Positions 48,411 to 49,782 of a stretch of 64,000 nt of DNA are shown here, piece after piece. The notes under the pieces are model-generated. The model saw nothing but the letters and a program-made list of their open reading frames with translations. It had not been told where the DNA came from and searched no databases. A program made the position numbers and the translations under genes. Positions within the stretch are counted from its first letter, which is position 1; each line of letters opens with the position of its first letter. This stretch comes from Gamsiella multidivaricata (Eukaryota > Mortierellomycota > Mortierellomycetes > Mortierellales > Mortierellaceae), in assembly GCF_025024155.1 (NCBI RefSeq), contig NW_026251718.1, positions 518,401-582,400 of the forward strand. Reading direction: 5' to 3'.

Positions 48411-49782
48411 ATGCCTCGATTCCTCAAGTCTGGAAAGGCACGTGATATGGAGTGGATACTCAATGGTCTTCACCCATCATAGCATGGGATGGATCAACGT
48501 GTCTATCCATCGGTCGAAGCATCGATTGCTAACCGGACTATTGCTGGATCTATCGATTAGGTTGTCGTTATCCTTAACGGCCGTTACGCTGGCAAGAAGG
48601 CCGTCATCGTGAAAAATAGCAATCCAACAACTGCTTTTGAATCATCGTTTACATTTCAATGGAGTGCGAAGGGTTATGGCTGGAAGGCGAAGGCGTCTTC
48701 ATCAACTAGTACGGGAGCAGAAACAATGAAGGAGCAGACGTTACTTGAACAGCATACGGGATCTATAAGCAGCGCTCTGGATCGCTTCAAGGAAACACAC
48801 ATTTTTTATAGTTGTTCATGAGGGCACCAACATCTTTTAGGGTTCAACTATGGGTCAAAACCATCTTTCAGCAATCCAGACAACTGTCGACATATACCGC
48901 AGCCACAGAGCGATATTTTTTCTTGGGTTGTTGTAATGGAGACGCCTGAGTGAAAGGAGAACTTCGGGAAAAGATAAAACTCGTTAATTGGGCGCAGTAT
49001 TTTCAGTTGTAGGATGGTACTTTGACCCTCCGCGACAATATACCCAGCATAAAGCAACCATTGAGCTGAATTGTCGGGAAAGGACTGTATCTTCAAGGAA
49101 GAGGAGGGCTTTATATGGCATGGGCTTCGTTTTTATTCTCTTTTCGTTATCTTCGTAACATGTTTCCTCGCATTGGAAACTTGTGTGATTCGTATGACCT
49201 GCGTTCTTGTCTTTTGTTTCTTCTTTCTTTTGCCTGCTTGCTGTCTTCTTTTTGCCCACTATTACATGTCGATGAGGGTACCAAGGAGCGCGGCTACGGT
49301 CACGCCATTGTTGCCGGTGTCGAGCGTTATCCCCTCAAGATCACCAAGAACATGGGCAAGAAGCGCGTTGCCAAGCGCTCCAAGGTTAAGCCTTTCATCA
49401 AGGTCATCAACTACAACCACGTCATGCCCACCCGGTAAGTGGATTTCAGAATACGATGCCGTTGACTAGCATTTTTGTCAATGTTTAAGGACGCAGATTA
49501 ACTAACATTACATCTATTATGTCTCAGCTATGGTTTGGAGTTGGAGACTTTGAAGTCTGCTGTCACCCTTGACTCCTTCAAGGAGCCTTCCCAACGTGAG
49601 GAGGCCAAGAAGGCCATCAAGAAGCTCTTCGAGGAGAGGTATGTATCCTGCGCACCCTGCTGTATTTATTATCTTAATGGCGACGGAAGCTCGTTAACGC
49701 TTCTGTTTTATTCCTTGTCTGCCGCCTCCTTAGATATAACAGCGGCAAGAACAAGTGGTTCTTCACCAAGCTCCGCTTCTAA
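48411..49782 (+). CDS. RPL27: 60S ribosomal protein eL27 with non-canonical introns
   Basis: Large-subunit ribosomal protein. Exons 48411..48437, 48561..48615, 49266..49434, 49528..49638, 49734..49782 give exactly 136 residues, the length of yeast and human eL27. Sequence: MPRFLKSGK, VVVILNGRYAGKKAVIVKN, VDEGTKERGYGHAIVAGVER, YPLKITKNMGKKRVAKRSKV, KPFIKVINYNHVMPTR, ending GKNKWFFTKLRF. Introns 3 and 4 are GT-AG. Intron 1 (48438-48560) starts GC and ends TAG; no GT donor keeps the frame. Intron 2 (48616-49265) fits only as AT...AC: exon 2 ends AAA-A, and the next exon starts AT-GTC-GAT-GAG, with no AG for more than 130 nt upstream. The exon 2 frame would stay open to 48821 if intron 2 were retained. 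Confidence 0.92.
48438..48560 (+). other. GC-AG intron of eL27 gene
   Basis: 5' splice site AAG|GCACGT and 3' site GATTAG|GTT. GC-AG is a known minor U2-type class. The join restores SGK-VVVILNGRY, as in eL27 proteins. Confidence 0.8.
48616..49265 (+). other. Probable AT-AC intron of eL27 gene
   Basis: 650 bp. The 5' end is ATAGCAATCC, and the 3' end is a pyrimidine-rich CTTCTTTTTGCCCACTATTAC. The exon join restores IVKN-VDEGTKERG. The 5' end is not a good U12 consensus (ATATCCTT), and no U12 branch site sits within 10-20 nt of the 3' end, so a U2-type AT-AC intron is more likely, if real. Confidence 0.65.

Follow-up and report, generated by a model that had tools for sequence, protein, structure and literature searches.

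An apparent AT-AC intron in the eL27 ribosomal protein genes of Gamsiella multidivaricata

Introns with AT-AC ends account for 0.019% of fungal introns (PMC7072748, Table 1). Some depend on the U2-type (major) spliceosome, such as the human SCN4A intron 21 type (PMC2831892, PMC7072748), and in sodium channel genes AT-AC introns of this kind carry a G at +5 (PMC2831892, section 16). Budding yeast has no minor spliceosome and AT-AC is its best pair after GT-AG; it is used in the SUT635 protointron and at an alternative junction of RPL30, a ribosomal protein gene (PMC6726248). In early-diverging fungi, 31-32 "other AT-AC introns" that are not classed as U12 are listed for Phycomyces and 3 for Rhizopus oryzae (PMC2846911, sections 11 and 12).

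The second intron of the eL27 gene of Gamsiella shares the AT and AC ends and likely removal by the major spliceosome with the SCN4A type, whereas it differs in having C at +5, a conserved start, a hairpin before the branch candidate and a ribosomal protein gene as its host. Similarly, it resembles the yeast cases in its AT-AC ends, here in a genome where no minor spliceosome was detected, and, for RPL30, in the kind of gene; however, AT-AC splicing is rare or alternative in yeast, whereas in both eL27 copies of Gamsiella it is the only route seen to the full-length product. The Phycomyces and Rhizopus oryzae introns likewise belong to early-diverging fungi and fall outside the U12 class, but those sections of PMC2846911 give counts and name no eL27 case, and both species have minor snRNAs. 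The regulatory introns of yeast L30 and Xenopus L1 (PMC2846911, section 12) also lie in ribosomal protein genes and offer a parallel for feedback or inefficient splicing, although for eL27, unlike these two, regulation is something we infer. The same section reports that uS15 (S13) has, in Rhizopus and Phycomyces, a U12 intron lying towards its 3' end. Each of the two uS15 copies of Gamsiella carries a GT-AG intron close to its 3' end, and one of these introns is plainly U2-like: that of the copy on contig C90 (L038) is about 153 nt long and starts GTAAGT, and that of the copy on C170 (L039 1915-2382) is about 458 nt long with the odd start GTATCAACC. A literature search over titles, abstract openings and selected passages found no report of the eL27 intron described here.

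We analysed a window of 64,000 nt together with the 37.5 Mb genome, in 180 contigs, that contains it. When joined, the five exons of the eL27 gene in the window (copy A, Table 1) give 411 nt, that is, 136 codons and a stop, and the product matches the Ribosomal_L27e domain (Pfam, E 6e-40). The original prediction of a 136-residue eL27 with a GC-AG intron 1 and GT-AG introns 3 and 4 is thus confirmed. In intron 1 the A of a CTAAC branch motif lies at -28, and the intron is GC-AG in copy A versus GT-AG in the second copy described below. This end is ordinary, GC-AG accounting for 1.009% of introns in fungi (PMC7072748, Table 1). One public eL27 model, P0020, lacks exon 1, as though the GC donor had not been used. 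A uL14 gene (Ribosomal_L14; window 47362-48261, minus strand) lies head to head with eL27, and a minus-strand ATG at 48261, where it apparently begins, is separated by 150 bases from the start of eL27, a spacing that suggests a shared promoter region. A single tRNA was detected in the window, a tRNA-Ala (TGC) at 60871-60944 on the plus strand.

Table 1. Features of eL27 copy A in the window.
Feature	Position	Strand	Basis
Exon 1	48411..48437	+	translation
Intron 1, GC-AG (GCACGT...TTAG)	48438..48560	+	
Exon 2, ending GTG AAA A (phase 1 of Asn28)	48561..48615	+	
Intron 2, 650 nt, AT-AC as best reading (ATAGCAATCC...TATTAC, start ATAGCA)	48616..49265	+	
Conserved 5' element of intron 2 (27 of 30 bases shared with copy B)	48616..48645	+	
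Conserved hairpin GUUUCC-UCGCAUU-GGAAAC	49162..49180	+	
Candidate branch site TATGAC, kept in copies A and B	49193..49198	+	
AG-free, mostly pyrimidine tract	49199..49259	+	
3' intron end TATTAC, same in copy B	49260..49265	+	
Exon 3 (AT GTC GAT GAG GGT...)	49266..49434	+	
Intron 3, GT-AG	49435..49527	+	
Exon 4	49528..49638	+	
Intron 4, GT-AG	49639..49733	+	
Exon 5 and stop	49734..49782	+	

For a full-length eL27, intron 2 fits only non-GT-AG ends, and AT-AC is the best reading. The junction is ambiguous by 2 nt: AT-AC, TA-CA and AG-AT would all yield an identical mRNA (Val29), and we chose AT-AC because it is a known class. A GC-TG split, with exon 2 ending AAT A and exon 3 starting TC, would encode Ile29 instead. 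The claim that the intron can only be removed as ATAGCA...TATTAC stands with two corrections. AT-AC fits best, with the two equivalent splits beside it, and the claim holds for the full-length protein; however, one GT-AG pair is present, running from GTGAAA at 48609 to GATGAG ending at 49276, and its use would delete six residues in frame. Overall, the sequence supports an unusual non-GT-AG junction in this housekeeping gene.

The same junction occurs in a second gene. Searching all six frames of the genome with the eL27 protein gave six matches at two loci, and no third eL27 gene was found in the assembled contigs. Copy B, on contig C124, has the same five-exon layout, and its intron 2, of 727 nt, likewise runs ATAGCA...TATTAC. 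Between the two copies, 20 of 54 four-fold sites have changed, and codon differences are synonymous in 29 cases versus 8 that alter the amino acid, a pattern by which both look functional and under purifying constraint. A sequence error at the junction, one of the doubts attached to the original prediction, is very unlikely and was rejected, as copy B repeats the junction on another contig. A second eL27 gene with normal introns is equally hard to maintain, given the junction of copy B and the failure to find a third gene, and the constraint on both copies together with their shared junction led us to reject a pseudogene. Nor is the suggestion of a young insertion supported: intron 2 is present in both diverged paralogues, and is therefore older than their divergence, and it is apparently family-wide. 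A DNA search with intron 2 matched only the two eL27 loci, and a young or mobile insertion was rejected.

Comparing the two copies of intron 2, it becomes clear that conservation is concentrated at the ends and in a few internal elements. The first 30 positions match at 27, the last 20 at 18 and the last 30 at 21, whereas for introns 1, 3 and 4 between 5 and 14 of the 30 terminal positions agree; at the four-fold divergence rate, three or fewer differences in 30 have P 9e-4. Inside the intron, TGTTTCCTCGCATTGGAAA and GATTCGTATGACCTG are kept in both copies while the remaining interior has diverged. TGTTTCCTCGCATTGGAAA folds as a hairpin in both (z -2.89 and -3.15, with 2 of 200 shuffles equally good in each), and its stem shows a G-C to G-U change between copies. 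The 17-base core of the hairpin occurs without mismatch only at the two eL27 copies genome-wide, and the hairpin pattern at up to two mismatches gives 8+3 genome matches versus 1+0 for the reversed control. Nine places beyond the eL27 copies carry the pattern with two mismatches. The 5' 16-mer of the intron is likewise found without mismatch only at the two loci; at up to two mismatches it is not commoner genome-wide than its reversed control (66+80 versus 68+67), and the 5' region folds no better than shuffles in either copy (z 0.95 and -0.08). Pairing between exon 2 and exon 3 was seen in the folds of both copies but was discounted as evidence, the coding sequence being alike there anyway.

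The 3' part of the intron is distinguished by the absence of AG. In copy A no AG occurs for 159 nt up to the 3' boundary, in line with the more than 130 nt predicted, and the 168 nt between the flanking AGs exceed every other one of the 3758 runs free of AG on the plus strand of the window; on the minus strand, with 4253 such runs, the maximum is 156 nt. The predicted pyrimidine-rich end is also borne out, with 71% pyrimidine after the last AG in copy A (159 nt) and 79% in copy B (67 nt). The candidate branch site TATGAC places its A at -68 in copy A and -57 in copy B. It holds a four-of-five match to CTRAY, as do other places, and its distance of 57-68 nt is long; a full CTRAY lies 22-34 nt from the end in three of six other eL27 introns.

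Our preferred reading, which we consider likely, is that intron 2 is an AT-AC intron of old standing, retained by selection and spliced out of eL27 transcripts by the major (U2-type) spliceosome. U1 snRNA (5' end ATACTTACCTG) and U6 were found in the genome above cut-off and with ordinary sequence. An AT-AC intron with decayed signals, removed by a minor spliceosome too diverged for the models to detect, is unlikely. The AT-AC ends themselves agree with it, and diverged RNAs can escape Rfam models; moreover, among related fungi, minor snRNAs or introns are described for Rhizopus and Phycomyces (PMC2846911) and for Rhizophagus (PMC10639083), and four of the five RNAs for Lichtheimia (PMC4133162). 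Against this, the suggested search for minor snRNAs, run with the U11, U12 and U6atac models and with no positive control of that class, gave no match in the genome while U1 and U6 were matched. PF18036 (Ubiquitin_4), which we take to be the family of the minor-spliceosome protein SNRNP25, had one genome match below cut-off (16.1 versus 22.8 bits). The U12-type branch motif is TTCCTTRAC, and the strict, exact pair TATCCTTT...TTCCTTRAC, searched over one gap range, gave 0 matches in 37.5 Mb. Intron 2 is also a misfit by U12-type features, taken in part from PMC3584512. Its 5' site agrees with RTATCCTTT at five of nine positions in copy A and four in copy B. The best branch-motif match in the last 60 nt reaches six of nine and lies 32 (A) or 23 (B) nt from the end, where about 11-13 nt is given for U12 introns (PMC3584512). 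In addition, the intron has a polypyrimidine tract of the kind that U12-type introns lack. These three departures favour U2-type removal, and the long AG-free pyrimidine tract and distant branch candidate would themselves speak against U12 splicing. The 5' site, ATAGCA in both copies, matches RTAAGT at three of six positions, with C and not G at +5; intron 1 of copy B, a GT-AG intron, likewise reaches only three of six.

To compare the intron with relatives, we drew on three protein searches, whose best 120 of 2902, 2011 and 2074 matches include 34 Mortierellaceae eL27 models. Gamsiella, Actinomortierella and Haplosporangium were placed in the family by taxonomy look-up, and we take the remaining listed species to belong there as well. 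Ten of the 34 listed models (P0001-P0010) are full-length, reading KN(V/I)D(E/D)G, and are probably transcript-supported; seven have KNVD and three KNID (P0002, P0005 and P0008). The other 24 leave the eL27 sequence at the intron 2 junction. Eleven of these translate into the intron as (S/N)(N/K)(P/S)T(T/S/A), suggesting that the same 5' element is present in other Mortierellaceae. Four lose exactly six residues through the GT-AG pair (P0017, P0033, P0121 and P0122), one loses nine, and the remaining eight deviate in other ways or begin late, including the partial record P0054. Several M. alpina strains are among the deviating models, so these do not count as independent cases. In P0039 and P0069, portions of the conserved 3' region have been translated, their back-translations being compatible with CTCGCATTGGAAACTTG, ATGACC and TTACAT. 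The listed public models suggest that an AT-AC-type intron 2 is present across the Mortierellaceae.

The full-length models also bear on the GC-TG split with Ile at codon 29, which we regard as quite improbable. The public model of copy B, P0005, reads KNIDEG, and the DNA of copy B gives Ile only via GC-TG; P0002 and P0008 likewise have Ile. However, Val is found in seven of the ten full-length listed models, among them P0004 of M. alpina, a species in which three models for that type of gene (P0012, P0013 and P0019) show Asn-Asn at the intron start and therefore no GC there, if the DNA of the strains is alike. Moreover, a human survey reported no constitutive TG acceptors (PMC2374985), and a preference of the mapping program for GC donors may explain the Ile.

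A main splice at the GT-AG pair GTGAAA...GATGAG, which would leave Mortierellaceae eL27 without VKNVDE, is highly improbable. Its ends are canonical, it uses the first AG past the tract, and the four public models named above are spliced in this way, but these look like automatic models. The six residues are retained in the ten full-length listed models, and P0007 and P0009 (VDD) and P0008 (IDD) would have no AG at that place. Furthermore, four aligned eL27 sequences, presumably fungal and two of them near-identical, are ungapped there, and GTGAAAA makes a poor 5' site. We find it scarcely credible that RNA structure directs removal without a spliceosome, whether in the manner of IRE1 or tRNA endonuclease or as the relic of a self-splicing intron: the hairpin, the extended conserved ends and the poor U1 fit would suit it, but 48560-49300 matches nothing in Rfam at E up to 5, no intron-end pairing is common to the folds of both copies (the fold of copy B alone pairs the 5' end weakly with the tract, probability about 0.24), and the branch-like motif and pyrimidine tract suggest a spliceosome.

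Under removal of an AT-AC intron by the major spliceosome, the first-base A and last-base C would stand in for the usual G and G. The branch would probably form at TATGAC, just past the conserved hairpin, and the long AG-free pyrimidine tract would let the search for the 3' site continue to TATTAC. Given the poor pairing of the 5' site with U1, the first splicing step is likely slow; splicing is probably assisted or regulated by the hairpin and the conserved 5' element. Less probably, recognition of the intron start ATARCAAWCCAACAA may depend not on U1 pairing but on the hairpin acting with a dedicated factor or an RNA contact; the eL27 protein may bind at this place and autoregulate, and the intron would then be a lineage-specific, regulated AT-AC intron in every Mortierellaceae eL27 gene.

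Such an intron could have arisen in two ways. Either a GT-AG intron changed at each of its ends, or a U12-type AT-AC intron stayed behind when the minor spliceosome was lost; a path like the latter has been proposed for introns of sodium channel genes (PMC2831892, section 16). We also considered whether the AC end is ancestral, being shared with Mucorales: P0124, P0130 and P0140 go wrong at this junction too, yet the residues they show are compatible with an ordinary GT-AG intron. In back-translation at the same phase of Asn28, R-S-W can be written AGA A/GT TGG and L-D as YTA G/AY, other codons being possible. These models weakly hint at a GT-AG ancestry of the Mortierellaceae intron.

An AT-AC intron would explain why 24 of the 34 listed eL27 models from this family go astray at one place, a practical warning for gene prediction. 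If our reading is true, Gamsiella would have a natural AT-AC intron that is required by an essential, highly expressed gene in a genome where no minor spliceosome was detected, and it would offer a natural system for the interaction of the first and last intron bases and for 5' site recognition under weak U1 pairing.
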